Shown: positions 1 to 64,000 of the stretch, piece after piece | How positions within the stretch are numbered: the first letter of the stretch is position 1 | Layout of the letters: every line of letters starts with the position of its first letter | Origin: Branchiostoma floridae | Taxonomy: Eukaryota; Chordata; Leptocardii; Amphioxiformes; Branchiostomatidae | Direction: 5' to 3' | DNA length: 64,000 nucleotides | NCBI RefSeq assembly: GCF_000003815.2 | Contig: NC_049982.1 | Coordinates: 17,681,548-17,745,547 of the forward strand | Notes under the pieces: generated by a model | What the model was told of the DNA's origin: nothing | The model's database searches: none | The model's input: the letters and a program-made list of their open reading frames with translations, nothing else | Translations under genes and position numbers: made by a program

Positions 1-299
1 GCTTCATAGTGGGGTTGTTAAACTGTTTTTGTTTTTGTTTGTTTGTTTTGCATACTGCATCATGGCATATAACACACCAGGTTTGTACAAGCTGCAAATC
101 TGGACAGATTTTACTGCTGATCCACTCACACCAGGCAGGACCCCTACTCTTTTCAGTAAGTGTGATGGGTTCTTTAACATGCTTAAATTGTGACTCTCCT
201 CAGACACAGGGCATCTCTGACAGAAGCTAGATACTCATTTACCCGAGTAAAGTGAGAAAAGTTGTGTGAAGTTCCTTTCCTAAGGGAACGTGTTCGGTG

Positions 300-360
300 A
301 CAAATCAACAGATTTGAACCTCTGGGCTACAGGCCAAACTCCCTGCCGTTAAGCCAAATG
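300..360 (-). repeat. tRNA-derived SINE head
   Basis: Read on the minus strand, an A-box-like TGGCTTAACGG (346-356) is followed about 25 bases later by a B-box-like GGTTCAAATCT (310-320), the spacing of a tRNA promoter. Flanks do not form a tRNA cloverleaf, so a tRNA-derived SINE is more likely than a real tRNA gene. Confidence 0.5.
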
Positions 361-1814
361 ACTCCACATTTGGCTATGGTATAGTGAAATTGATAAAGCC
401 CTACACATGTACATTATAAATGACCACTGCAGGGTTTAATCTGCAACACAATCCATGTTGCTTGTCTTTTCTTGAACATGTACATTTACTTGTAGAGATC
501 TGGCAATCTTCTTGAGTAATTAAACAGTTATATCAATACATAGGGCATGCAAGAACCATACTTGTGTCACCTGTTAGCCAAGACAGAAGGACAATCATTC
601 TGATGAAATGACACAAACATACACAGTCAGTAGGAGGATCTCCCGGATACATTTTGTACATACATGCACACCCACACAAGTTGTTACAACAATGCATGCA
701 CATGTCCTACTCGTGGCCATGTTTACTGACAACAAGTTCCACATTTCAATAGCCAAAGCCTTTGATATGACTTTTATTTGACCTACATGAGCAAGTAACA
801 AAACTGTTGTTTATCAGCAAGTGCAATGACAAGAAATTAGACTTCCATGGCTTTTAGCCCCATCCTATCTCATAGTATATGCCGATATTTGGAATGATCC
901 ATTTAAAGTGTAACTGAAATGAAATCGTCTGTAGCATTTTCTACCAATAATGTAAAAAATTGATCTTTTCTGAAAAAGTCAATGCAAGTTTCAAATCAAT
1001 TGTCCGTCCGGAAGTCCCTCAAACAGCGACATAAAAATGTGTACTTTGAGCTCTTTGCTGGAACTAATTAGGAACACGCCGTGACGTCATTTTAGTTAGT
1101 CCCTACTAGCTGGTATGGTTGACTAGGGGAATAATGTACATTTGATAGACCCGTATCTTATAAAGGAAACATAATTCATTGACGAAACTCGGCACGACTA
1201 AAGAACACATACTTCACTTCACTTGAAGGGAATTTCGTTCGTATTCACGCCACTAAAATATATCTTAGAGGCACTTGAAGTTGATGCACGTACCAAGCGT
1301 GCGTAACGCAAGCGAAGCGGGGAGAAAGTTCATTATTGTAGCGTGTGGAATAAGCGGGGATAAACAGCCATCGCTTCTTCTATACACAAATGATAGCATG
1401 AGCTTACATTATCCTCAGTAAGGAGGCCATGCTGTACATTGATTTGAAGATGTTTTCTAGCGGAAGCGCAGAAGTTTGTGCCTCTTTGCGGTCTCCGCTT
1501 GTGCCTGCTAGCGAAACCGGGACTAAAGCTTCGGTCGCGTACAAATATACAACAGCTGAGCAACTAACTACGTACAGTTTGCCAGGATTTAAAATGAGAA
1601 GCAACCTCATTGCCACAAGAAATGCGACTCAAAATACATTCCCACTCAAAGTATGTGTTTGTTTACAAACCTGTAAGCTTTTATCGGATAGATAGTACGT
1701 CGTAGACTGACTATTTCTAGTCGTGAGCACGGCCGATAGCTAAACGCCTGCAGATTGTGACGAGTCCGTGAAACATTTTGAGAGTGACTGTTCTTTCTGT
1801 CTCATATTTGTCTG

Positions 1815-2489
1815 CACAACAGACAGATTTCGTAAGCTCCCAGTGATTCGAGGAAAACACACAGACTGGTGTTTCCGTGATAGAAAATTCGAAAAGTGTG
1901 GTTAAATAATAGCGCATGGCACGGGGCCGCCATTTTTTTGTGAGGAATTTTTCTTTGTTGTTGACGACGAAAAATCCAAGATTCACTCGTAACTAGGTTT
2001 TACGGAGACCATATCAGTACTACATATCAATGCTACAATATTCATGACAAAATCTAGCGACAAAAGTGCCAAGTTTGTAGCTACACGAGCAAAAAAAACG
2101 AGTTATCGATGACATAGTAACGAGTACGTACATGCTTGTGGTCCCGCAACCCAGATATATTTTCCTTTGTTTACATGCTCAGGTTACGCTAGAAGTTTTT
2201 ATACAAAACCAAACTATTTTAACTCACCTATCAACAACATGTCCACCGCTAAGACACTACACAACAGACAGATTTCGTAAGCTCCTAGTGATTCGAGGAA
2301 AAACATACAGACTGGTGTTTCCGTGAAAGAAAATTCGAAAAGTCTCAGGATTTTAGCGCACGGCCGCCATCTTTTTTGGGGCCATTTTTCTTAGAGTTGT
2401 TGTTGTTGACGACGAAAAATCCCAGATTCGCTCGTAACTTGGTTTTACTGAGACCAAGAACTACAATATTCATGACAAAATCTAGTGAC
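1815..2489. repeat. Imperfect tandem duplication, period about 445 bp
   Basis: Two related blocks, 1815-2061 and 2260-2489, share runs such as ACAACAGACAGATTTCGTAA, CTGGTGTTTCCGTGA, GTTGACGACGAAAAATCC and ATATTCATGACAAAATCTAG. Each copy also contains a YY1-like GCCGCCAT word (1926 and 2363). The copies differ by substitutions and small indels, so the event is not recent. Confidence 0.8.
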
Positions 2490-4045
2490 GATTTTTCCAA
2501 CGTATTTTGAATACGGTCAGCAAATTTTCGTGCTTGAAAATCTTGGGACAGCGTCGTTTGTTGTTACGAGTTCGGTATAAGCGGAATCACTTTGTTATGA
2601 AATCTATCCGGACGCCGACAAAGAATCCAATGTAAAATCCAAGAATCATTTGTGCTGTTTTGTGTCGGAGTCTAAGCGTACAAGTACTTCACAATAATGG
2701 CACCGCAGTTATGACCAGAATAGGCGAAATACAAGGTAAATTTACAGGGCGAATTACTACTAGTATGTGACAGATAAACGTCCTGCAGCTGTGATAAACT
2801 GTGGCGAATTCACCCTTCTCCGCGCGCGTTCCGTGACTGGAGTCGGCAGACCAGCGGTGTCAATAGTTGGAACTTTTCCTGCGATAATTCTTCTGGTCCT
2901 CCTACAGCTCTCCCCAATATAATCTCAAGGTTCATGTTGAAGTACGAGGGCTCGAAGTGTGCGGAGCTCGAAGTGTGCAGAGCCATAGATGTCGCGGAAG
3001 GAACCATGCCGATGCCTCTGAACAAACTTGATACATAATTTTGTACACTGTTTTCTAGCTCGCCGAGACTCTCAATTTGTCAGCCACAGTTCTGTCATTT
3101 CTAACTTTGGGGAATCTGTGCATAGATATCCCCTCGGTAGACTGACTATTCTTACAGCTAACGCCATGTGGGCCTCCTGCGACACAATAACTTCTACTGG
3201 ACTTTGTACTAACACGACCTGTAGTACAAGACGCCATTACAGCGGACGGGGGTAGAGCTACTAGAAGAACGCGACTCTCTAAAATGACGTCATGCATATC
3301 ATTTGAATTCGCCCTCGGATGCACCAAGTCGCACTTTTTGAAGACGTTTTAACATAACTTCCCGACCGAATTATCACATGAAAAATATTTCAATCTAATA
3401 GCGAGGAAATGATCCTCTAGATCGTTAGAAAATAAATTGTATTCAATTGTATTTCTGCAAGTCTTTAAGTTAACTGCTACATACATGTACATGCAATCAA
3501 TGACAGTGTTAACTTAGCCAACAACAGGGTGGGAGAAAAGTATTGTTGTCATTACTGGTGAATTGAAAAATAAAAAACTTCAAACAACCTACTGAATATA
3601 TCTATATATAAGTTTCAATGTTAATTTATAATTGTTAACAAATCTAACAAGAAATTTGATTGTGAAGGAAAGCTGCTATCAAAGACTCAAACAAATATCT
3701 ATTCTTGGACACACACACAACACAACAGCATATTATTTGTTGATTTACGTGCCTGATGATGTTTTGAAGTGACATAGACAAATCTCTCCAGCATTCACTT
3801 CAACATTTAGCCACATGAGCTTAAAGCAAAGTTGGGTATCAGCTCAGCAACATTCAGGTCAAAGGTCATTATGCCAGTGGTACAGAAACTCCAAGAAGAG
3901 AGATTTTGTCAAGTAAATGTTTTCCTAATCTTGTGCAAGGAGCACTGTCACCAGCATGGAAGTTGTGCTTGTATGACCGATCACCTCCTTGGAATATTGA
4001 TTATATTAGTACATGTATGTGAAACAGGCAATGTTGCGAGTCTAT

Positions 4046-7843: not shown

Positions 7844-15149
<7,306 letters not shown>

Positions 15150-17749: not shown

Positions 17750-18841
17750 ATATGTATGACAGTGTTTTTTCTTGATGCTTGATCCCCGCGAAGCTTTGGA
17801 GATCTCCGATTCATAATTGATGCGCTTTTACGTTCTGTGACTGGTTTGTTTCTGGTAGGTTACCAGATATAAGGGGAATTGGCTCATGTGGCTGCGACTT
17901 ACTTTGCGTTGTTTACCAACGCTTGAAAGGTGAGACTTTGACGTGAAAATGCAGAAAGCTAGTTACAAATATGAATATCTGCATTTTGGGCACCAAGACT
18001 CTACAATACATCACGTCACCTTAAAAACTTGCATTAATAATACATCTTAAATTACAAACCACTCATAAGGAGAAGATTAGAAACAGATACAAGCCCTAGT
18101 TTGCAATGTAAATGTTTTATTCAAATCGATATCAAAAGTCTCAGTTGTCATGATATATCGGATTGATTTTGTAGTGTAAATCATGCTTGTTTATAGTATC
18201 TGGTGCCACTGATCCCAGCTGTTCCACTAATTTCAATACATTTGCTACCCAAGTTGACAGTAAAACATGTCTCTAATGCATTAACATCGACTGGCCAAGG
18301 TGATTCGCTTTGTCTATTTGCCAGGCTGTTGACAGTCGGCATGTTGAACGTTAAAAAGCTGTGTGTGGAAACGAGTCCGGGTGTATTTACATTTGCATGT
18401 TGTGTTATACTTGTTGCATAGTTCGAATGCCCACAGCAGCGGTGGCATTCGTATTATTTCAAATAAGTGGTTTTCTTTTGTTCTTTATATTGGCCACGTG
18501 CTGGATTGCATTGATGAAAAATAGATATTGAACAAAATTACCGGTTGCCTGAATACTAAAAATACGACGTATATGTAGCTCTATCTATGCAATGATTGAA
18601 ACTGCGGCAAGCCTCTCTATGATCCTCTATCAATCTTCAGCTATCAGCTTATCTATGGTAACGTTAGTAATGCAGGCAAAAGTTCAATGGTTACTACGTT
18701 GTTTGATAATTTACTAGAGTCTTTAAAAGAGATTTATGGACAATGCAGTCGCTGTAACATTCGCTCCATTTTATGTATGAACTTTTTAAACTCAAGGCCT
18801 AGACATGATCGTTACAGCACAGGGGACAGATGGTTCTTCAG

Positions 18842-18929
18842 TACTCTCCAAGCAGAGGTCGAATCGCGCAGATATAGTAGTAGTCGAAAAAAACACTCGC
18901 GGCGTGCAACCCCGGACCGACTAGCGTAA
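18842..18929. mobile_element. Left end of a hairpin MITE, interrupted by an assembly gap
   Basis: Begins TACTCTCCAAGCAGAGGTCG immediately after the 9-mer GTTCTTCAG (18833-18841). Its matching right end is at 25771-25794 across both N gaps, followed by the same 9-mer. It is the same terminal type as the complete element at 50411-50620. Confidence 0.8.
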
Positions 18930-19029
18930 NNNNNNNNNNNNNNNNNNNNNNNNNNNNNNNNNNNNNNNNNNNNNNNNNNNNNNNNNNNNNNNNNNNNNNN
19001 NNNNNNNNNNNNNNNNNNNNNNNNNNNNN
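18930..19029. other. Assembly gap (100 N)
   Basis: Exactly 100 N, the usual placeholder for a gap of unknown size. It interrupts a palindromic transposon on the left and starts a new contig 10 bases before the end of a DNAAF9 exon-2 copy on the right. Confidence 0.99.
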
Positions 19030-22000
19030 TGGATGGCAGGTAAGGACACTTGACTGTCCTGGGACCAAGTCTGATGTACCATTCAAATTATGTATTGGTT
19101 CAAGGTCTGTGTTAAGTATTGTCATTGACGATTTCAACATTCTGTGTAATTCATATAGATATTTACCAATGCAACGGGTCAACCCAGATAAGAACTTGAA
19201 GAAGGAGCCAAGTTTGAAATGGTCTGATAGCTATATAGTATTAGTATTGTACTTTAAAGCAACTTCCCACATAGTATTATGTAGTTATGTCTTTTTGCCA
19301 TCATTGTGGGTTTACAATGGCCAGAAATCCTAAGTATCCTAATAATTGCATGTATCTCATCGTTCAAATTTCTTTCAACAAAGAAAACAAGTTCAAACCT
19401 TGGAGAAAGAGATACATGGCATGACAACTGATATTTTGCACTCACAGGCACAGCGATGGAGCCCGGGAGCTGGCCAACTATGTTCTCTTCGGTTTATATG
19501 ACTACAAGAACATCAAGAGGTATTAAAGTCCAAATCATTTTTTAAACTTTATTTCCTTTAATATTGATTGATTTGTCATTTTGTACAGAAGAAAGAATGT
19601 GCTGAATGAAATTCTTTCTTTTTTTCTCGTTTATTCTTAGGTCTAACCTTCCAGAAGACACTGTTGATGGTATGTTAAAAAGTATTCAATGATTGATAAC
19701 TTAAAGGTGATAAAGAAGGTTTCCTTGGAATTTTTCTTGGCACCTTGTAACAAGAAATCAAAGCTTGCAGTGTTTGTGTCAGGTCCTTAAATCTAGACTT
19801 GAGAGTGGAAGAATGGCTTCCTTTTGCATAGACACTGGCACACATTATTAGGTGTTTAACAAACATTGTTTTGAGGCTTTATAAAAATGCCTAGCAGCTA
19901 AAGTCATTAGTGTTGAAACTCTAGAGTGCTAGAAACTTGTAAATGGCCAATTTAGTACCCTAAACTTGCTGAAGAGTCTAGACTATACTGTATATAGATG
20001 GCTATAGCAAGTGACCATTACTGAAGCTGATGTATACTATGTATATGATGTCTTCAGTTCTTCTTTAATAATGACAATGGCCCATTCATTCATCCCTAGA
20101 CATGATGCTCCTGATCAGACAAGATGGTGTTCGCATATACTGTAACCCTGTCAACTACCCATACCTGCTGCCTTACATTGCACACTGGAAGAACCTACAG
20201 ATCTTCTGTATGGCGGAAGACAAGGTCTGTGTTCTTCACCTCCTCTTTGCTTGTGTATAGTCACCGTAGCAGTCAAGTATCTACAACACTTTGCCTAATG
20301 ATAGTTATACATTTGTATGTAGATGTAATACTTAACAATGTAATTTGTATATTCTTGTATTGAACATTTTGTATTGAAACATTTCATATCTGAATATGTC
20401 AAAGCTTCTGTCCAGGAATCTTTGTACATATTTCAAACAATACAAATTTGTTGTCAAAGGGCTATCTCAAAAGGAAAAGGTGTCCAAAAAAATTGTCACA
20501 TGCTTCTGAAAGCTACAAAAATGTGTGACGAGTATTAAAATTAATTTAGAAGCCTACAAGTGTTTAGTATGTGGATTTGAAGTATTGCTCTATTGATGGA
20601 TGATGGGTTAAGCTGTGTTAACTGATGTTCCTATAGTACCATGAGGATGAGGAGGAGGCTGAGGAGTACAAGATCAGGAGTTTTGTGGCCATGATGGAAG
20701 GGAGCAACAGAGTGGGGCTGCCTTACAGCTCTAGATGTAAGACTAGTATTCAGCTCATGCATCAAGAACAGCTGTCAATGTTTGAGGAACAGATGATAAT
20801 TCTTCATTTACTGTAATGTCACTTAATTGATTTTATTTATTATATCTGTATGATATAATACTGTACTCTGAGTACAATGTACTGTTTTCCTTGTTACCCC
20901 CTGTGGAATATGTCCTTAAGCTAACTTTTGGTAGCCTTTGTTGCATGTTGTGCTACAGCTACAGTCAATACTTTGAAGCTGCTACTGTCTCATTTAAGCA
21001 CACTACATGTAAGTTTTAACTTTTTCTGTCCAGTTAATCAGCAACAGTTCAGCCCAATGGTCATAGAGAAGTGGCCTATTATACAGGCATTTGCCCTGGA
21101 AGGGTTTGGAGGGTAAGTAAGCATTTTTCTTTTGACTTTGTGATATCAAAAAAGTGTGAGGCATTTCCAGTAAAGAGAAGTAAAGCCTTTTATCAGGTTG
21201 ATCAGTATGATAAGTATGCTCTGATGAGAGATTTCCCAGATGTGAAAGGTTGGCATAAAGACACATAAAGACAGTTTATGATTTTCACCTTTCAGTGGAG
21301 GATTTTTCACCATGAAGCATGAGGTGTTTGATGTCAGCAGTAGACTGGAGCACATCTACACCAGGCTGGACCCCATTGGACTGGAGAACCTGGTCACAGA
21401 GGTGTCTATCCTATCATTATCACTGACTCTGTGGAAGATTGTGTTGCTACTGTCATATTAACCTCCTAGTTTGGCTTGTACATTTCAAAATGGCATAGAT
21501 GCATCTATCCCACCTTACTTTTACATAGATCCGTGAAGGCCATATTTAATCTAATACTTGATGTAGGCTTTGGCAAACTACATGCACCTAGGGACCACAA
21601 TAAGAAACTAGCTTGTCTTGCAGTCAAGATCATGCTTAAGAATAGCCAAGGTGAATGTTAGATAGGTCAATACAATACAATGTTAGGTTAATAATTATCT
21701 TTAATAATTGTTGATTCTTATCTTTACTCAGCAACTGTCCCAGTTTGAACAGCAGTGGACTTCATTGATCAAGAATATTGATGTTGAAAGGTAGGAGATG
21801 ATGTTGTTTGGTATGGAGCAATCAGAGAAAGAACTAGCACTTACATGTATGTGTGCCAGTATTCATTACCAAATGATTAGTAAGATGTCATATGGAAAAT
21901 TCAGGAGCCAACCTTTGATACAGAAATAAGCTCCTGTCAAAATGGTTTATTAGCATTTATGTATTATCTGAGCATAATTGTCAAACACTGCCTTCTTTAA

Positions 22001-22259
22001 TATGTGACTGAACAATAGCTACTGAAACTTTATTTACAAACTTTATTTACAAACTTAGGCCACACCAATTTAATTTCTTGGTTCACGGATTTTTTCATAA
22101 AAAATATGGAGCGAGAGGGCGAAATAAAAATAAAAATTGTAAAATGGTTGGGACAAAGGTAACGGCTAATCCAAAACATAAAGAAAAAAAGGTTTCAGCT
22201 TGAAAAAAGTACAAAAACACTATTATTGTACAGTAACAGCACCTGTACCCACACTTTAA
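19030..22259 (+). repeat. Near-identical second copy of the 5' part of DNAAF9
   Basis: Matches 26511-29739 base for base except for about four differences: a one-base deletion near 19932, and substitutions near 21525, 22024 and 22086. None lies in an exon. It contains copies of the last 10 bases of exon 2 and of exons 3-9 at 19448-19519, 19641-19669, 20100-20224, 20637-20736, 21034-21112, 21296-21401 and 21732-21790. The match ends inside a Harbinger-like MITE. It has no exon 1, promoter or downstream exons of DNAAF9, so as placed it is a fragment. An assembly artefact is more likely than a functional copy. Confidence 0.95.
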
Positions 22260-22689
22260 AGGGGCATTCCACTCCAGAAGCGGGTATCATAATTCATCAG
22301 AGAATAAATTGTTATGCTTGAATCAAGTTTGTTTTGTCAAATGTACCATGAGTTGAAGCCTGAACGCAGGGCGTGCATTATAGCGATCGACTTCTTGAAT
22401 TCCCCGCTGGTCCCTTACCAACAATCCCAGAATTCAATGCGCATGGTGTGTTACGGACGAGCTGGATCGACGAAGCCGCCAAGGACTCTTCCAGTTGAAA
22501 AGGTTGGTACTGGCATAAATTTCGATGTTAGCTGCTCAGGATTGCTTTTTTGGCTAGACTAAATATGTGTGCACAACCTCTATCAGAACTGGTAGGCAAA
22601 CGCGTTCCAATCATTATTTGCGGGCCATTCTGTAGCGATCTGCCAATATGTAGATAGTCATTTTTAGATAGAAGAATGGTCCGTAAAAA

Positions 22690-23645
22690 GTTGCCAAATT
22701 TCTGTATTCCGAGGTACCCTGAGCATCAGACTTTTTGTGTACCTTCCTAAATGTCCGATAGTAATTTTACCGTTTTCGGTTTGTTCTCACTCACTCAGCG
22801 TACCGAGATATTGGGCCCGAAACTGACCATGAAAGTAGCGTGTTTACTGTGAGCGGCGTCATTTTTAGCCTCCACCAGGCCTTGCTACGGGGGTGCGTGG
22901 ATCGTACAATTCGGGAAAAAAATTCGGGAATTGGCCAAGGGAGCTCCGGAGTCAGTCCACGATTAGATTCACATTTCCCCTCCACGGCCGACCAACCTCT
23001 CTGGTAGCAAACCCTTGCCTTTGGCAAATTATTCTCCTTATGAAACCAGCGTAGTCAGTCTGGTATTGAGGCTATCCATTTTTTGTTTTGACATACGTCA
23101 CATTCACGTGTATGGCGACAAGCGACTACTTTCAGCTCTCACTACAGTGCTAAAATCTCTGCATACCGGAAAGCTAAGGTCTTCAAACGTTTTGTGTACA
23201 TTCCTTAACTGTTTGATAGTAACACGACTGCTTTCGTTAAATTTGTAGTTATACCGTTTACGAGAAATTGGGCCTGAAATTTACCTTGCATTCAGAGTGT
23301 TTTCGGCTAGCGACGCCATTTTTTGTTGACATGTGATGACCTAGTTTACTACAGTGCTAATATCTCTGCATCCTGAAAAGCTAAGGTCTTCAAACTTTTT
23401 ATGTGCATTCCTAAATGTTTGATAGTGAGTCGACTACTTTTGTTAAGCTCGTAGTTATACAGTTTACGAGAAATCGGGCCCCAAAATCGGCCTTGCATTC
23501 AGAAGTGTTCGCGGCCACGCCATTTTTGTTGACATACGATTACCAAACTTTTACATTGTATTCAAGTGCTAACATCTCTGTATCCCCAAAAACTACGGTC
23601 TTCAAACTTTTTGTGTACATTCCAAAATGTCTGGTAGTCACTCGA
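22690..23645. repeat. Diverged tandem repeat, period about 207-212 bp
   Basis: The word GTGCTAA(A/T/C)ATCTCTG recurs at 23147, 23354 and 23566. Each is followed by a TTCAAAC..TTTTTGTGTACATTCC segment and then CGAGAAAT(T/C)GGGCC. A more diverged unit starts near 22700 and is separated by about 200 bases of other sequence. CpG-richer than its surroundings; it probably belongs to a transposon. Confidence 0.75.
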
Positions 23646-23744
23646 CTATAGCATGCAATAATGTCATAGTACTCATAGAGTTCCATGTCTTTAAAATTCT
23701 GCATGAACTGGTGCATAACTGCCACTTCTGTTTTTGTTTGATAG

Positions 23745-24696
23745 AAAAGAGAAGGACGTGGTCGAGGAAAAGTCCAAGTCAAAAGGTAATTAATTTTTAA
23801 TTTCATTACTAGTAGAAAAGTGTCCTCATGTGCCTACTTACATGTATGTATATTTATTTCTTAAAATGACAACACTGGATTTGTCAAGGGACATGATATG
23901 TTTGGTAAGATTACTTGTTCTGGTAAAAAAGATTGACAGAAGTGTATGATTTGGGCTAATGGACTAGGCACTGGTATACCTCAAAGTCAAACCAAAATAT
24001 TTATTGCACTAACAGATTTTGTAGTGCATGCAAAATCTAATCATTATCATGACAAGCTTATAATTGCTTCTTTCCTGGGAGTGACTCTGAAATTAATATA
24101 AGAAATGTTCTCTGTTTTGGCATGTAAAAGAATATGTGGCTACTATACTGTATAGTAGCTAGTGTAAATCTATATTTAAAACATTCAAATATCCGATTTT
24201 AGAATTATAGTCAGTACAGTACTAATATATATTGGGTGCAGAAATGTGCTAAGCACTGTTAGAAGTAATATATTCTTTTGTAGGCAGCCCAGAAGCCATT
24301 CTTGCTTGCTTGTATGCTTGATGGATGTTATATTCAGAAAAGCCATCTTGGAGTTGGGTGATTTTGTAATACTAAGATCATACTAATAGTTCATGTATGG
24401 TCGATTTCAGCAAAAGGTTGACATGGAAGAGTCAGTTTTTGCATGGAAAGGGAGATGGAGTTTGTAAATTTCAGCCTCTCTTGTTATTCATGATTGTCAT
24501 TTTTAACATAGATGCAAATGTGGCCTAGTATTATTTTGTCATCAATGAATATCTTAATCACAAGAACATTGTTGACTTCAGAATATATTCTTTGCAGATG
24601 ACCTAAGGCAGCGGTTGGACTACAGTAAGAGGCTAGGAGACTATGTGGTCAAAAACATCTATGAGAAGAAACAGGACTACACTTTCAAAAAGAAAG
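23745..24696 (+). CDS. Two candidate exons of an unidentified gene
   Basis: Segment 23745-23785 (after ...TTGATAG, before GTAATT) and segment 24598-24696 (after TTTGCAG, before GTGTTG) have plausible splice borders and join in frame. Together they encode a Lys/Glu-rich stretch (EKDVVEEKSKSK) followed by DDLRQRLDYSKRLGDYVVKN and YEKKQDYTFKKK. The phase also continues from the duplicated DNAAF9 exon 9 upstream, but no corresponding segment exists in the intact gene. I do not recognise the protein. It may be the tail of a different locus brought in by a chimeric contig. Confidence 0.4.
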
Positions 24697-25670
24697 GTGT
24701 TGAAGGCTGTCATACACAGGCGTCGGGAGTTTTGTGGTGGCTAGGTGCTCCAAAAGCCTGACTTTCCAGGCCAGACAATAAAACTGCAATTGCACAGTAC
24801 CGTTCAAGGTTTACAGGCTAGTAAACGAGTCTCGTTTGGAACTCTACTGTTTTCATGGTCATGTTTTCTCATTTTTGTTATGTTTTTTTTAGCATACATG
24901 CTTTATATGACAAAACTACATGTAGTTTCTGTTTTGAACGTTTCAAAACTGCTGCTCCTATTTCTCTTAGACACAAGAAATGTGAAAATTTAAATATTAA
25001 TTCATGAACATGCAACTTGAACATGTTGGCAGTAGCCCATATACTTCAGGTTAAATCCAGGTAGATCCTGATATACTGATTTTATAAGACAGGCTATATT
25101 ATTATGTTAATAAGGACAAGTTCCCATTGTATATCCAGTGGATCATTTTATTCATAAATATCCTGCCTACATATGTCAGAAACAAATGCTGTTTTACAAC
25201 AATATATGTGTGTCCACCAAAGTTTTCCCTGCCTATTTTTGAAAATTACACAGAAATGTAATTGTATATTGATATAATATACATGTCTTTCTTGCTGTAT
25301 ATCTAGTTCAAAGGAATATGAAAATAAGGATACTTAATATGTTCAAGGTTTCTATTTGGCCTGTTGTATAAACCATGAATAGGTAGATAAATTTATACAG
25401 GTGAGGTAGATAGATGTCCGCATTTGGTTGAATGCACCTGTTATAGTGGAAATAATGTGGAAACTGTGTAACACTGTTGTCAAGATTGTTTTTGTTTTAG
25501 CAGTAAAGCCTCACCCTAATTCTAATTCTAACCCCAAGCTTCACAAGAATGGATAACCCTAACAGTAAAAAGTTAGTAGAATACAGATTTATAGATCACT
25601 CTCTGGTTTAACGTCAGATCAATTTAGCAATTGAACATGTGGTGGCGAAATATCTTAACAGGAAAATGTC

Positions 25671-25770
25671 NNNNNNNNNNNNNNNNNNNNNNNNNNNNNN
25701 NNNNNNNNNNNNNNNNNNNNNNNNNNNNNNNNNNNNNNNNNNNNNNNNNNNNNNNNNNNNNNNNNNNNNN
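25671..25770. other. Assembly gap (100 N)
   Basis: Exactly 100 N. The sequence resumes inside the right terminal repeat of the same MITE that is cut by the first gap. Confidence 0.99.
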
Positions 25771-25794
25771 GATTCGACCTCTGCTTGGAGAGTA
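25771..25794. mobile_element. Right end of the gap-split hairpin MITE
   Basis: GATTCGACCTCTGCTTGGAG and AGTA form the reverse complement of the first 24 bases at 18842. They are followed by GTTCTTCAG (25795-25803), identical to the 9-mer that precedes the left end. Confidence 0.85.
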
Positions 25795-25881
25795 GTTCTT
25801 CAGCACAGCGGAGCGGACAGTTCGAATTACCCGCTCAACACTGGTGACCAACCAGATCATGATCACATGACCTCTGAACAT

Positions 25882-25919
25882 CCAAAATGGCCGCCGTAGT
25901 TGCTAATGAAAACAAGTGA
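25882..25919 (+). promoter_or_regulatory. YY1-like motif and short upstream ORF in the DNAAF9 leader
   Basis: CCAAAATGGCCGCC (25882-25895) resembles the YY1/TISU motif that sits at many transcription starts. The ATG inside it opens a ten-codon frame ending at 25919, about 48 bases before the DNAAF9 start. It marks the likely transcription start and may act as an upstream ORF. Confidence 0.5.
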
Positions 25920-25966
25920 AGTTCGACTAAAAGTTTTCTTCCAATTAAACCTAATAGTCGAGACGA

Positions 25967-28900
25967 ATGGCTCAAAACAGCCCGTTCAGACCTTCTTCAG
26001 GTCGCCGTGCAGCTAGACAGGAAACCTTTTCCTCAGCTGTGAGGTGAGTTGTATTGATTTTGAAGTCTTCGGCAGGGAATCTGATGTTGTCAGTTTGCCG
26101 TGCCGTGTGTGTGGGCGGGTTCCAAATAAAGTCATGTCCTACAACATGTAGGTGTCAATAGATCACAGAGAGACAGTTTTGTTGACAAAAGACTATCATT
26201 GCAGTAAGTGTAAACTCAGTATATGTTCTAGCTGCAGAATCAAGAACAAAGTCTGGACCAATAGCTAGATTTTATACCTCCCCCTCCCCAATCCAATCCT
26301 CAGGCCAATTATAGATTGTAGAAAAGTGAAGAGATATAACAAGCAGTATTCAAGTGTAAAATGAGATATCACGAAGTAAAATGAAACACTGATAAACGCT
26401 ACAAATGTTCCCCTGCAGTAACTGCAGGTTACGACAGGTGCAGTCTTTACTCCAACCCAGCAAAGACCCCAGGCAGTCCCAGCTGGATGCTGTATTGTGT
26501 ATCCTTGGTGTGGATGGCAGGTAAGGACACTTGACTGTCCTGGGACCAAGTCTGATGTACCATTCAAATTATGTATTGGTTCAAGGTCTGTGTTAAGTAT
26601 TGTCATTGACGATTTCAACATTCTGTGTAATTCATATAGATATTTACCAATGCAACGGGTCAACCCAGATAAGAACTTGAAGAAGGAGCCAAGTTTGAAA
26701 TGGTCTGATAGCTATATAGTATTAGTATTGTACTTTAAAGCAACTTCCCACATAGTATTATGTAGTTATGTCTTTTTGCCATCATTGTGGGTTTACAATG
26801 GCCAGAAATCCTAAGTATCCTAATAATTGCATGTATCTCATCGTTCAAATTTCTTTCAACAAAGAAAACAAGTTCAAACCTTGGAGAAAGAGATACATGG
26901 CATGACAACTGATATTTTGCACTCACAGGCACAGCGATGGAGCCCGGGAGCTGGCCAACTATGTTCTCTTCGGTTTATATGACTACAAGAACATCAAGAG
27001 GTATTAAAGTCCAAATCATTTTTTAAACTTTATTTCCTTTAATATTGATTGATTTGTCATTTTGTACAGAAGAAAGAATGTGCTGAATGAAATTCTTTCT
27101 TTTTTTCTCGTTTATTCTTAGGTCTAACCTTCCAGAAGACACTGTTGATGGTATGTTAAAAAGTATTCAATGATTGATAACTTAAAGGTGATAAAGAAGG
27201 TTTCCTTGGAATTTTTCTTGGCACCTTGTAACAAGAAATCAAAGCTTGCAGTGTTTGTGTCAGGTCCTTAAATCTAGACTTGAGAGTGGAAGAATGGCTT
27301 CCTTTTGCATAGACACTGGCACACATTATTAGGTGTTTAACAAACATTGTTTTGAGGCTTTATAAAAATGCCTAGCAGCTAAAGTCATTAGTGTTGAAAC
27401 TCTAGAGTGCTAGAACTTGTAAATGGCCAATTTAGTACCCTAAACTTGCTGAAGAGTCTAGACTATACTGTATATAGATGGCTATAGCAAGTGACCATTA
27501 CTGAAGCTGATGTATACTATGTATATGATGTCTTCAGTTCTTCTTTAATAATGACAATGGCCCATTCATTCATCCCTAGACATGATGCTCCTGATCAGAC
27601 AAGATGGTGTTCGCATATACTGTAACCCTGTCAACTACCCATACCTGCTGCCTTACATTGCACACTGGAAGAACCTACAGATCTTCTGTATGGCGGAAGA
27701 CAAGGTCTGTGTTCTTCACCTCCTCTTTGCTTGTGTATAGTCACCGTAGCAGTCAAGTATCTACAACACTTTGCCTAATGATAGTTATACATTTGTATGT
27801 AGATGTAATACTTAACAATGTAATTTGTATATTCTTGTATTGAACATTTTGTATTGAAACATTTCATATCTGAATATGTCAAAGCTTCTGTCCAGGAATC
27901 TTTGTACATATTTCAAACAATACAAATTTGTTGTCAAAGGGCTATCTCAAAAGGAAAAGGTGTCCAAAAAAATTGTCACATGCTTCTGAAAGCTACAAAA
28001 ATGTGTGACGAGTATTAAAATTAATTTAGAAGCCTACAAGTGTTTAGTATGTGGATTTGAAGTATTGCTCTATTGATGGATGATGGGTTAAGCTGTGTTA
28101 ACTGATGTTCCTATAGTACCATGAGGATGAGGAGGAGGCTGAGGAGTACAAGATCAGGAGTTTTGTGGCCATGATGGAAGGGAGCAACAGAGTGGGGCTG
28201 CCTTACAGCTCTAGATGTAAGACTAGTATTCAGCTCATGCATCAAGAACAGCTGTCAATGTTTGAGGAACAGATGATAATTCTTCATTTACTGTAATGTC
28301 ACTTAATTGATTTTATTTATTATATCTGTATGATATAATACTGTACTCTGAGTACAATGTACTGTTTTCCTTGTTACCCCCTGTGGAATATGTCCTTAAG
28401 CTAACTTTTGGTAGCCTTTGTTGCATGTTGTGCTACAGCTACAGTCAATACTTTGAAGCTGCTACTGTCTCATTTAAGCACACTACATGTAAGTTTTAAC
28501 TTTTTCTGTCCAGTTAATCAGCAACAGTTCAGCCCAATGGTCATAGAGAAGTGGCCTATTATACAGGCATTTGCCCTGGAAGGGTTTGGAGGGTAAGTAA
28601 GCATTTTTCTTTTGACTTTGTGATATCAAAAAAGTGTGAGGCATTTCCAGTAAAGAGAAGTAAAGCCTTTTATCAGGTTGATCAGTATGATAAGTATGCT
28701 CTGATGAGAGATTTCCCAGATGTGAAAGGTTGGCATAAAGACACATAAAGACAGTTTATGATTTTCACCTTTCAGTGGAGGATTTTTCACCATGAAGCAT
28801 GAGGTGTTTGATGTCAGCAGTAGACTGGAGCACATCTACACCAGGCTGGACCCCATTGGACTGGAGAACCTGGTCACAGAGGTGTCTATCCTATCATTAT

Positions 28901-31900
28901 CACTGACTCTGTGGAAGATTGTGTTGCTACTGTCATATTAACCTCCTAGTTTGGCTTGTACATTTCAAAATGGCATAGATGCATCTATCCCACCTTACTT
29001 TTACATAAATCCGTGAAGGCCATATTTAATCTAATACTTGATGTAGGCTTTGGCAAACTACATGCACCTAGGGACCACAATAAGAAACTAGCTTGTCTTG
29101 CAGTCAAGATCATGCTTAAGAATAGCCAAGGTGAATGTTAGATAGGTCAATACAATACAATGTTAGGTTAATAATTATCTTTAATAATTGTTGATTCTTA
29201 TCTTTACTCAGCAACTGTCCCAGTTTGAACAGCAGTGGACTTCATTGATCAAGAATATTGATGTTGAAAGGTAGGAGATGATGTTGTTTGGTATGGAGCA
29301 ATCAGAGAAAGAACTAGCACTTACATGTATGTGTGCCAGTATTCATTACCAAATGATTAGTAAGATGTCATATGGAAAATTCAGGAGCCAACCTTTGATA
29401 CAGAAATAAGCTCCTGTCAAAATGGTTTATTAGCATTTATGTATTATCTGAGCATAATTGTCAAACACTGCCTTCTTTAATATGTGACTGAACAATAGCT
29501 ACTGAAACTTTCTTTACAAACTTTATTTACAAACTTAGGCCACACCAATTTAATTTCTTGGTTCACAGATTTTTTCATAAAAAATATGGAGCGAGAGGGC
29601 GAAATAAAAATAAAAATTGTAAAATGGTTGGGACAAAGGTAACGGCTAATCCAAAACATAAAGAAAAAAAGGTTTCAGCTTGAAAAAAGTACAAAAACAC
29701 TATTATTGTACAGTAACAGCACCTGTACCCACACTTTAAGGAGCTCATAAGATAAAGGCCAATTTGCTACACCAGAAAGTTGGTGAATGGTTTCATTAAT
29801 GGTGAAAATTTGCTGAGGCGTAATTTTTATTTTTATTTTTTTTCCAAAAAATAGGAGCGAGCGAATCCGTGAACCAAGAAATTAAATTGGTGTGGCCTTA
29901 TATCAGAGTGTAAACTTAGCCATTTAATTGTAATATCAACTTTATGTTCCACAGCCCTGCCCAGAGAGCAGTCTTGACAGAGAGCAAAGTTGGAGAGGTA
30001 CTTCTTGAGACTATACCTACTTTGAGATGATCAGAGAGAAGCATATCTTAAGTTTGCTTATTTTTTGTACATGCTTGAACAATTTTTTTTGGCAAATGCC
30101 TTTGGGAAATGAAATAGCTTCCAATATTTTCCGACCAGCCATTCCAGAGTTACTACACCCATGGCATGCAAGCAGGCGGTGCTGGAGGGCGGAGACGGGC
30201 CTTTGTGCTGTTTGGGACTCGTACGGGCGGAGCAGGGGCAGGTGGACAGGGCGCTGATGGGGTCATTGGCAGGGCAGGTGTCAGGGGAGGGCCATCTCTC
30301 CACATGGTGAGGAACATGTCTGGGGGAAGTTTTGGTGAAAAATTATATGGTAGAGAAATGTGATGATTGTGATACATGTGTTTCAAGGGTAATAGCATTG
30401 AACAGTATATGTTCTGCTCTGTGGTAAGTAGTATGCATAGTAGGCATGGTACCATTACTTTTTTTTGTTTACCAAAATGACAGCAATTGCTACATTAGTC
30501 TAGAATATCTCAAGTTGTAAGGACATACAATTTCATTTTAAGCAAGTTTTGGTGCGCACATGTTTCTTGGTATGCACATGCTTCTTGGCGCACATGCTTC
30601 TTGGCACGCACATGCTTCTTGGTGCGCACATGCTTCTTGGCGCGTACATGCTTTGTACTGCATTGGAATCAACATGACAGTATTAAGTAACTGTTATAGC
30701 TAAAAGTATCTGCACATGAGAGAAATGGAACATACTGTTGGCATGTCAGAGGTTTATTGTCAGGTGTGATAATTCTAACTTTCCCACTGCACGTAGGCTT
30801 GTCAGGCCATCTCACCTCGGGGTCCACTCAGCTGTGCTAGAACCTACTTCTTCAGCAGTGGACATTTCCCATACCCAGGTATGCTCTACACACAATACCA
30901 ACAATTGAAGGGAGTTACTCTTCTAATTTTCTATTGGTATTTTAATGTAAATTGTAAGAATGAAAAAAAAATTGGAAACAAAGCACACACATGCATCTCA
31001 GCCTGCACATAAATACATGCATCTACTCACAATACATGTACATGACCTTGTACATACTTTTTTCTCCAATGTCCAGTAAGCGGAGGAACTGGCATGCCTA
31101 GAACTGAGGAAAAGAACATGGATCTCAGGTAAGGTCATAAGTAATGGGCTCTCCCGAGTCTGTGCTGTGAGAAATACAAGTGAGGGTCCGAAAAAGTTCC
31201 GCACACAAAATTGAAATGGTCGTCTCTCCAAATCGTAAGTCAACAATTTGCAAAATATACACAGCTGATTTTAAATTGTCCTTTTTTGTGTTGAGTCTGT
31301 GAAATTTTGAGATTCACATACCATTTTAAAAATTCTTAGCTATTTCCAACTCATTTGCTCTCTGAAATACTGTTTCTGGGGAAAATCAAATAGCTTATCA
31401 AATTGATATTTCATCACAAGGGCATCAATTTATCTATAGAACCTGTGTATTGGAAGTTACTAGTTGACCTGTAGGAATAGTGTGCTGGGAGTTATTAGAG
31501 CTGTACTGAATTTCACGTTGACTTGTGTAATTCTGCAGGTTGCTGTCTACCATGTACCTGGTAGCAGTTGATGCTGTTCTGGCTGCCATTGACAAATACA
31601 GCAAGACTCTGAGTGTTGGAGCTGTGAGTTTGCTCGGACTTTGTCCTTATCCTGACTTGCTACTGTCTAGATGTCATACATTTATTACAGATCTACCAGT
31701 ATTCTCTTTCTCTCTTTTAATAGTACATAATGCTTCTGATTACAGATGATGATAGAAGTTTTGTTTCAACAAGTCTTGGTCTTTAATCTCATCAACATCA
31801 GATAGCCCTATTATGAGGTTTCTTGATTTTTATCAAATGTTTGTATGCATGTATGAAGAGACTGAATTCTTTGTAAAATAACTAGTGGCCATGGAAAATA

Positions 31901-50237: not shown

Positions 50238-50383
50238 TTATCTCCAAGCAGATCCTACGATAGCACAAGATAGTATCAAAAGTTTGGCTACTGTATGTCG
50301 CTAAACACACCCCTAGGCCAGTTTCACTCCTTTGCCACCTTCTGATATTATCTTATGCTACCGTCGGATCTGCTTGGAGATTA
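50238..50383. mobile_element. 146-bp hairpin MITE
   Basis: The left arm TTATCTCCAAGCAGATCCTA pairs with the right arm ending GGATCTGCTTGGAGATTA. The flanks GAAGCTGAC and GAAACTGAC form a 9-bp duplication with one mismatch. It is close kin to the element at 56825-56997 (shared TAGTATCAAA and CTTATGCTACCG words). Confidence 0.8.
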
Positions 50384-50410: not shown

Positions 50411-50620
50411 TACTCTCCAAGCAGAGGTTAGGCTCCGGCTGTTTTTTTAACGTTCTTTGTTAGACGTTTTTATCGGGCTTTCTATTTTGTATCTTATCTC
50501 GCTGTGTCAAAACCTGTTTGCCTGGCGTACTTCAAGAAAAATGACAAAATAGAAAGCCCGATAAAAACGACTAAAAAAACGTTAAAAAGCAGCCGGAGCC
50601 TAACCTCTGCTTGGAGAGTA
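50411..50620. mobile_element. 210-bp hairpin MITE with 9-bp target duplication
   Basis: Arms of about 78 bp start TACTCTCCAAGCAGAGGTTA and end with the reverse complement. The arms contain GGAGCCTAACC, ATCGGGCTTTCTATTTTG and other matching words. Flanks are ACTTCAGAA on both sides (50402-50410 and 50621-50629). It has the same termini as the gap-split element at 18842/25794. Confidence 0.9.
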
Positions 50621-56824: not shown

Positions 56825-56997
56825 TAATCTCCAAGCAGATCCTACAATGGCATAAGATAGTACCAAACTGGCTAAGAAGTTTAGTCAGCCAAGAGGTGTC
56901 CATTTCCCCGGTAGCAAAACTCACTCCTAAGCCGGCTTCACTCCTCTGGCAGCTTTTGATACTATCTTATGCTACCGTAGGATCTGTTTGGAGATTA
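56825..56997. mobile_element. 173-bp hairpin MITE
   Basis: TAATCTCCAAGCAGATCCTA on the left and its inverse ending GGAGATTA on the right. It is flanked by TACTTGCT on both sides (56817-56824 and 56998-57005), an 8-bp duplication. Same family as 50238-50383. Confidence 0.85.
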
Positions 56998-62585: not shown

Positions 62586-63480
62586 CTGTCTACTGAGACA
62601 ATTTTCTAGTACACAATACTGTATTTAGTTACATGTTGCCCAAACTGAGGACACAGAATAGTTGCATTTGAATGTACTGCTTACGTGGTGCAAGTCAGGG
62701 AACTGCCATCCAAGGGAGTGTTCAACTTTTCAAAAACAAACTTTGTTTTAGGTAACAGTATGTAGGTTTTTCCTCCATAAATAGCAAAAGCATTGATGTG
62801 ATCACATGATATCTACATGTTCAGTTCATCTACATGTACATATAGCAAAAACATGGCATTCCTTCACAAGGGACAGGTAATAATTTATTTCTCATTTCAT
62901 ATGTGATCTTTACATAATTCAGCATGATGATAATAAGAGAGAAAAAAAGGTAACTCTCGTAAGCCTGCTAAGGAGGCTACACCACACCCTTTCAAAAGGC
63001 TACCATGAGCACATCTTTTGCTGTATTCCTGAGGAAGGTCTGTAGTCTGTACTTACACAGTATGGAAGGGAGACTAACATTACCTCCTATGCATAACTTT
63101 TGACACAAATCATGTGTAATGTGAGGGCAATATAAGTGGTAATTTTCTGCTAACCTCAAAGTATGTTTACATCTGATACCAATGTGCCTGGTTGTATACA
63201 ACATTGTCTACATGGGGTTATGTAAACCTGAAGCAGGTTTGGGGCTATATATACCTGGAACACTGCCTAGAATCTTTATTTAACGTGCCCAGAAGGTAAA
63301 CATATTGACTTTTCTGGTTGTCCTTTTCTGGAGTCCTTTTCTGGTAGAATGGAATAAAATCTCATAACTTTTAAACCTACCTTTTTTTCTAGTTGACTGG
63401 AATAAAATCAAGCTAGGGAAAGTTACTTGACATAAAGGGATCAAGCTACAAACTGCCCAAGAAGACCACAAGTGGACCAA

Positions 63481-64000
63481 TAAAATGTTTAACTTGCATA
63501 TTACACTATATCAATACGCCATTCATGTTCACATTCCTGTACTATACATGTATGTAGTTATAGACCTTAGACGAGTATCATTGTATTAATTGACTTATTA
63601 CTGTTGCCTTACAATTGTACCATGTACAAATGTCGTGCAATAAAGTTCATTCATTCATTCAATCTGGTCTATTGGCCAGGTGGTCCTCATGTTGAAATGG
63701 TCACCTGTAGTCCCGTTTGATAACATCCTTAAATGTTCAATAGATCATTTTTACATTCTTGTCCCAGTAGCCAGTTCACTGTACAATAAATCCTTTGGAA
63801 TCCTCCCATCTGGCATACGGCTGTAATATGCAAGTTAAATAAAATGTTTAACTTGCATATTACACTATGTCAATACGCCATTCATGTACACATTCCTGTA
63901 CTATACATGTATGTAGTTATAGACCTTAGACGAGTATCATTGTATTAATTGACTTATTACTGTTGCCTTACAATTGTACCATGTACAAATGTCGTGCAAT
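63481..64000 (+). repeat. Tandem duplication of a LINE-like 3' tail, period 359 bp
   Basis: The block starting TAAAATGTTTAACTTGCATA at 63481 recurs at 63840 with few differences and runs off the window. Each copy leads to CAAATGTCGTGCAATAAAG, and the first is followed by CATT repeats, the type of ending seen in CR1/L2-like LINEs. Confidence 0.8.

Follow-up and report, generated by a model that had tools for sequence, protein, structure and literature searches.

A probably misplaced, redundant contig upstream of DNAAF9 in the Branchiostoma floridae assembly

A primary assembly that has kept a haplotypic (heterotype) false duplication (purge_dups, PMC7203741; PMC9516828) is one of the described systems closest to the arrangement reported here for a 64,000-bp stretch of Branchiostoma floridae DNA (the window; NC_049982.1, positions 17,681,548 to 17,745,547), in which a small contig with exons of the gene DNAAF9 stands between two gaps and between the two ends of a transposable element. 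A gap that parts the copies on a single scaffold is given as one sign of false duplications, and partial gene copies have also been described for them (PMC9516828). According to the authors of purge_dups, scaffolders based on linked reads or Hi-C do not, to their knowledge, handle heterozygous overlaps (PMC7203741). The window is alike in its near-identical copies on one scaffold, the gap between them, the partial exon duplication and the small contig; it differs in a copy divergence of 0.12%, which may be low for alleles of the species.

A further comparison is offered by Pack-TIR or Pack-MULE elements, in which non-element DNA lies between two terminal inverted repeats (TIRs) flanked by a target-site duplication (TSD) (PMC8277862). 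The window shares this layout but differs in that its interior greatly exceeds the reported median length and that gaps lie at both junctions. Two kinds of miniature inverted-repeat transposable element (MITE) are also relevant: those of the MULE type are defined by a TSD of about 9 bp and TIRs, those of the PIF/Harbinger type by a 3-bp TTA target duplication and inverted ends. The Kolobok superfamily has non-autonomous members without transposase. A TTAA target together with an AGGRR terminus marks the T2/Kolobok kind (PMC6004289), and a general RR/YY rule for termini has been given (PMC9587614).

The middle contig and its copy in the right contig

The window consists of a left contig that ends at 18929, a middle contig of 6,641 bp (19030-25670) and a right contig that starts at 25771. 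The middle contig is most likely an ordinary assembly error and not new biology, a view which, like all our claims on misplacement, is built on sequence comparison. The features that carry it are as follows.

18930-19029, no strand: gap 1, 100 N in the window sequence
19030-22259, + strand: first half of the middle contig, a copy of 26511-29739 (99.88% identity, blastn)
22058-22259, + strand: opening 202 bp of a Harbinger-like MITE, which breaks off with the TTAA at 22256-22259
22260-25670, + strand: initial 3,411 bases of a transposon of the Kolobok/T2 type with TTAA flanks, truncated at gap 2 (genome matches)
25671-25770, no strand: gap 2, 100 N in the window sequence
26511-29739, + strand: stretch of the right contig that recurs in the middle contig (99.88% identity)
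29538-29897, + strand: the same Harbinger-like MITE, intact at 360 bp, with TTA on both sides and an uninterrupted site (sequence)

Bases 1-3,230 of the middle contig match 3,229 bp of the right contig on the same strand with three substitutions (at 21528, 22032 and 22087 in the middle contig) and one 1-bp indel at about 19935. The middle contig holds a near-identical second copy on the scaffold of the right contig, with the gap at 25671-25770 between the copies. The match stops exactly after a TTAA (22256-22259 in the middle contig, 29736-29739 in the right). In the right contig this TTAA lies inside the intact MITE, whose 34-bp ends are 97% complementary, while the middle contig leaves the MITE after 202 bp and continues with new sequence that opens with AGGGGCATTCCACTCC. 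Judged from this comparison, the right contig carries the empty site and the middle contig the filled one, because the MITE of the right contig is intact at the very TTAA where the TTAA-flanked transposon of the middle contig begins. The insertion site looks like part of a DNAAF9 intron. The interrupted element resembles PIF/Harbinger MITEs in its inverted ends and its TTA duplication, at a length of 360 bp, and is a putative member of that group.

The boundary of the transposon is confirmed elsewhere in the genome. A search with the tail of the middle contig, in which 40 of 1082 candidates were scored, gave 72 matches; among the other 71, 27 start exactly at the first base of the tail and two at base 3 or 4. 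We examined eleven copies (loci L030-L040), ten of which included the 5' end. This end is preceded by TTAA in nine of the ten and by CTAA in one, and the terminus reads AGGGG in all ten, which fits AGGRR. The 3' end was found by pattern in seven of the eleven copies, all of which also have the 5' end, measure 4,863-4,922 bp and carry TTAA on both sides; the pattern did not find it in L033, L034, L035 and L040. The whole transposon of the middle contig is therefore probably about 4.9 kb long. With the T2-MITE type of the Kolobok superfamily it has the TTAA target and the AGGRR terminus in common (PMC6004289), but its full copies reach about 4.9 kb. The 20 longest matches at the 5' end are 90-98% identical to the window copy, which also holds an internal array of repeats of about 207 bp (23141-23648). 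A transposase was looked for and not found: none of ten open reading frames (ORFs) of the tail gave a Pfam match below E=0.05, and one whole copy (L031) has no stop-to-stop frame of at least 110 aa, although a spliced or decayed gene would escape this measure. A search for the other end of the transposon inside the middle contig returned chance matches of 9 and 8 bp only. That the contig stops inside a multicopy transposon would explain why it ends there.

The duplicated stretch includes part of DNAAF9, whose exon ORFs, identified by their matches to PF23281 and PF25203, are listed here for both copies.

26396-26521, + strand: exon ORF, PF23281 19-48 (E=1.6e-6), the first DNAAF9 exon detected
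27555-27737, + strand: exon ORF, PF23281 84-125 (E=1.2e-19)
28117-28293, + strand: exon ORF, PF23281 126-160 (E=1.4e-9)
28405-28593, + strand: exon ORF, PF23281 145-186 (E=2.1e-9)
28762-28938, + strand: probable exon ORF, PF23281 187-208 (E=2.8e-5; 23.9 bits, under the curated threshold of 27)
30797-31009, + strand: later exon ORF, PF25203 110-151 (E=2.3e-9), in the right contig beyond the stretch repeated in the middle contig
20075-20257, + strand: second-copy exon ORF, PF23281 84-125 (E=1.2e-19, score equal to that of 27555-27737)
20637-20813, + strand: second-copy exon ORF, PF23281 126-160 (E=1.4e-9)

In the right contig these ORFs stand in profile order, and part of the series is repeated in the middle contig, where the copy begins near the 3' end of the exon that matches positions 19-48 (at 26511, within the exon ORF 26396-26521). 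The two exon ORFs of the middle contig that were tested have the same profile positions and scores as their counterparts. The middle contig therefore contributes nothing further to DNAAF9 and repeats a part of it. Its present position puts the repeated exons upstream of the 5' exons in the right contig. Among the ORFs tested, positions 1-18 and 49-83 of PF23281 had no match, and a match to PF25203 44-76 (E=0.06) was too weak to count. Near the 5' exons, 26152-26265 (+ strand) has a FYVE_2 match (E=0.004) that is below the cut-off and probably due to chance, and 30554-30653, between DNAAF9-matching ORFs, is a short direct repeat whose period is about 34 bp.

Two other roles for the middle contig were considered and rejected. 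It does not fill in a missing part of DNAAF9, since everything in its first half recurs in the right contig and the remainder is transposon. Nor is the tail further DNAAF9 sequence or a diverged paralogue according to blastn, tblastx and Pfam: against the outer contigs, blastn at E<=1 yielded weak short matches only (the best 65.6% over 96 bp, E=0.001), and tblastx at E<=0.01 a single 28-residue match in the right contig (E=0.006).

The element probably split by the two gaps

The outer edges of the two gaps carry what are probably the ends of one TIR element, and an intact relative lies further along the window.

18833-18841, + strand: left 9-bp TSD, GTTCTTCAG (sequence)
18842-18929, + strand: left 88 bases of the TIR element (9-bp TSD), truncated by the gap (sequence)
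25771-25794, + strand: right 24 bases of the TIR element, the reverse complement of 18842-18865
25795-25803, + strand: right 9-bp TSD, GTTCTTCAG (sequence)
50411-50620, + strand: intact 210-bp relative, TSD ACTTCAGAA (sequence)

The original prediction had noted a 9-bp duplication on both sides of the gaps, and this is what we find: GTTCTTCAG occurs at these two places on the + strand of the window, and at none on the - strand. The left TSD abuts the element start (TACTCTCC...) at 18842, and the 88-base piece starts with TACTCTCCAAGCAGAGGTCGAATC. The right contig opens with GATTCGACCTCTGCTTGGAGAGTA followed by GTTCTTCAG, so that the right TSD abuts the element end (...GGAGAGTA, last base 25794). 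All 24 bases of 25771-25794 are reverse-complementary to 18842-18865, in agreement with the earlier view that the right contig begins 24 bases from the inverse terminus of the same element. The left contig was likewise said to end 88 bases into a hairpin MITE; the 88-base piece of a TIR element is there, whereas a hairpin is unproven for the split element, of whose right arm 24 bp are visible. With MULE MITEs the element shares the TSD of about 9 bp and the inverted ends; its relative is a 210-bp fold-back. By these features it is a putative MULE MITE.

How unusual is such a pairing? The terminal 18-mer of the TIR occurs 4374 times exactly in the 513-Mb genome used for counting (2230 forward and 2144 reverse; the reversed control gave 0 and 0). 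Because the TIR is common genome-wide, finding it at two contig ends would not in itself be unusual; what is rare is that an identical 9-bp flank goes with it. The chance that two unrelated 9-mers agree is 5.3e-6 from base composition and 9.3e-6 from the 9-mers of the window itself, and we rejected chance as the source of the matching TSD on these figures. Facing TIR pairs were also sought in 288 kb, made up of a 264-kb tile around the window and loci L001-L008, with a spacing of 40-8000 bp and at most two mismatches in the 9-bp flanks as thresholds. The 17-base terminus has 17 exact copies there, and just two pairs qualified, the split element at the gaps and 50411-50620.

The element at 50411-50620 had been cited as an intact relative with the same termini, a 9-bp duplication and a length of 210 bp. 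These particulars are exact: the outer 18 bases at both ends are common to it and the split element, and its duplication ACTTCAGAA is perfect. Inward of these bases the left 88-base piece has no match to it, so its length is not transferable to the split element. A related MITE family with ends like TAATCTCCAAGCAGATCC is present at 50238-50383 and 56825-56997; one of the two is a neighbour, 27 bp away, of the 210-bp relative at 50411. Their TSDs are GAAGCTGAC/GAAACTGAC (9 bp, one mismatch) and the 8-bp TACTTGCT. Since the other TSDs of the window differ from GTTCTTCAG, no strict target sequence forces the match at the gaps. GTTCTTCAG and ACTTCAGAA have CTTCAG in common, and a weak target preference of the TIR element is possible. 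A search of the literature with the TIR letters gave no transposon paper among the matches listed, judged by title, and an Rfam search gave no match.

Competing explanations for the middle contig

The explanations are weighed here on four direct observations, namely the duplication, the clean empty and filled site, the transposon boundary and the paired TIR and TSD. The explanation in which we place considerable confidence is that the middle contig would be a redundant version of the right contig from 26511 on, misplaced between the outer contigs, which would themselves be adjacent. On this explanation the left and right contigs would be neighbours with one TIR element and its 9-bp TSD lying between them, the interior of the element being unassembled. 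The proper place of the middle contig would be over 26511-29739, from which it would differ by the four small changes and by the TTAA-flanked transposon, about 4.9 kb when whole, inserted in the Harbinger-like MITE within the apparent DNAAF9 intron. The redundancy would stem from the second haplotype or from a false duplication of some other kind, and a scaffolding step would have set the redundant contig into the nearby break made by the TIR element. The original prediction had already proposed that the outer contigs are adjacent and the middle contig inserted by scaffolding, and the 99.88% copy and the inserted transposon support it. It went too far in letting the TSD show the misplacement; the TSD alone does not, and the support comes from the duplication of the right contig and from the transposon half.

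Several points weigh against this explanation. The copy divergence of 0.12% is far below the heterozygosity of 3.2-4.2% given for amphioxus (PMC12862219, PMC12500494), and for comparison the sides of another redundant gap are 98.8% identical over 570 bp; an allelic version therefore has to assume that the two copies share a recent ancestor or that polishing made them alike. The low divergence could come from polishing of both copies with the same reads or from a mosaic right contig. Redundancy is also not the rule at gaps, because nine of the eleven gaps in the 264-kb tile, as well as the two gaps inside the 3-kb loci L004/L005 and L007 (with short flanks), lack near-identical sides. Finally, a real tandem duplication may fit the window sequence too. 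In that case the 5' part of DNAAF9 would have been duplicated recently as a unit that starts inside the TIR element and includes its TSD, one copy would later have been hit by the TTAA transposon, and all breakpoints would lie in the gaps. The shared TSD alone does not exclude this, because a unit with such a start gives both copies the same TSD; it accounts for the common TSD and TIR no less well than a misplaced contig does, and its strongest point is the copy divergence, which would be very low for alleles of a species with the heterozygosity of amphioxus. We nevertheless regard it as unlikely: in gap 1 the rest of the element would have to be hidden together with a copy of 25771-26510, and in gap 2 roughly 1.5 kb from the end of the transposon, the remainder of the unit and the junction, though both gaps are written as 100 N. 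No breakpoint is seen, and the middle contig is a small contig between two gaps, gaps between copies being a mark of false duplication (PMC9516828).

Could the arrangement be real in another way? Neighbouring DNA might have been used to repair a gap in the TIR element, and the middle contig would then be genuine captured sequence between the element ends, as in a Pack-TIR. The TIRs and perfect TSD on both sides agree with this, as does a source on the same strand whose start is some 0.7 kb away from the right TSD; animal Pack-TIR sources are biased to nearby DNA, with 56.9% within 15 kb and the majority of these at less than 5 kb (PMC8277862). The interior, however, would measure 6.6 kb or more, where the reported median is 224 bp, and the same survey, by its own report on 100 animal genomes, identified no Pack-MULE. 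The survey required an interior to be 80-120% as long as its source, a limit used there to exclude later insertions, whereas here 6,641 bp stand against 3,229 bp (PMC8277862). The gaps conceal both junctions, and the transposon half of the middle contig is an insertion of its own. We regard capture as very improbable. Hardly credible in its full form is a giant animal Pack-MULE-like element that would have copied more than 3 kb of DNAAF9, exons included, by gap repair and would later have been hit by a Kolobok-type transposon. We give equally little credence to a correct scaffold order in which two copies of the element coincide at two contig ends. The abundance of the TIR (4374 exact 18-mers) speaks for such a coincidence, but for any one pair the probability of a 9-bp match is about 5e-6 to 9e-6, the other TSDs of the window differ (ACTTCAGAA; GAAGCTGAC/GAAACTGAC; TACTTGCT), and the 3.2-kb duplication is left unexplained.

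Neighbouring gene, other gaps and minor repeats

To the left of the gaps the window holds one further exon of note.

15081-15149, - strand: GRK5/6-like exon 1 (23 matched residues, E=0.0016 to GRK5); the gene would run leftwards

The ATG of this exon lies near 15149 on the - strand. No other GRK exons were found, and a kinase-motif regular expression had no match over the window. From the GRK-like exon 1 (about 15149) to the first detected DNAAF9 exon ORF (26396) the assembly measures 11.2 kb, or 4.4 kb without 18930-25770. If the middle contig is misplaced, the true spacing is most likely about 4.4 kb and not 11.2 kb, which bears out an earlier estimate of about 4 kb in place of 11 kb, with a GRK match of 23 residues only. 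A partial second DNAAF9 and an 11-kb distance between GRK and DNAAF9, as read off this assembly, are thus probably false. More generally, a misplaced contig can be recognised without reads from the paired ends of a transposon together with the comparison of an empty with a filled site.

Of the eleven gaps of the 264-kb tile, two, the region of gap 2 included, have sides that are near-identical to each other, which speaks for the explanation by a misplaced redundant contig. Beyond the locus the interest is small, although redundancy of a similar kind occurs at two gaps. The other case is a 100-N gap 93.6 kb to the left of the window (G000:C4:17587967), whose sides repeat over 570 bp at 98.8% and over 95 bp at 100%. 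On its right side an extra stretch of about 395 bp precedes the 95-bp match. This gap is possibly the site of a second retained overlap. At the right end of the window, 63479-63641 and 63838-64000 are two direct copies of 163 bp, 98.8% identical and with starts 359 bp apart, the second of which runs to the last base of the window.

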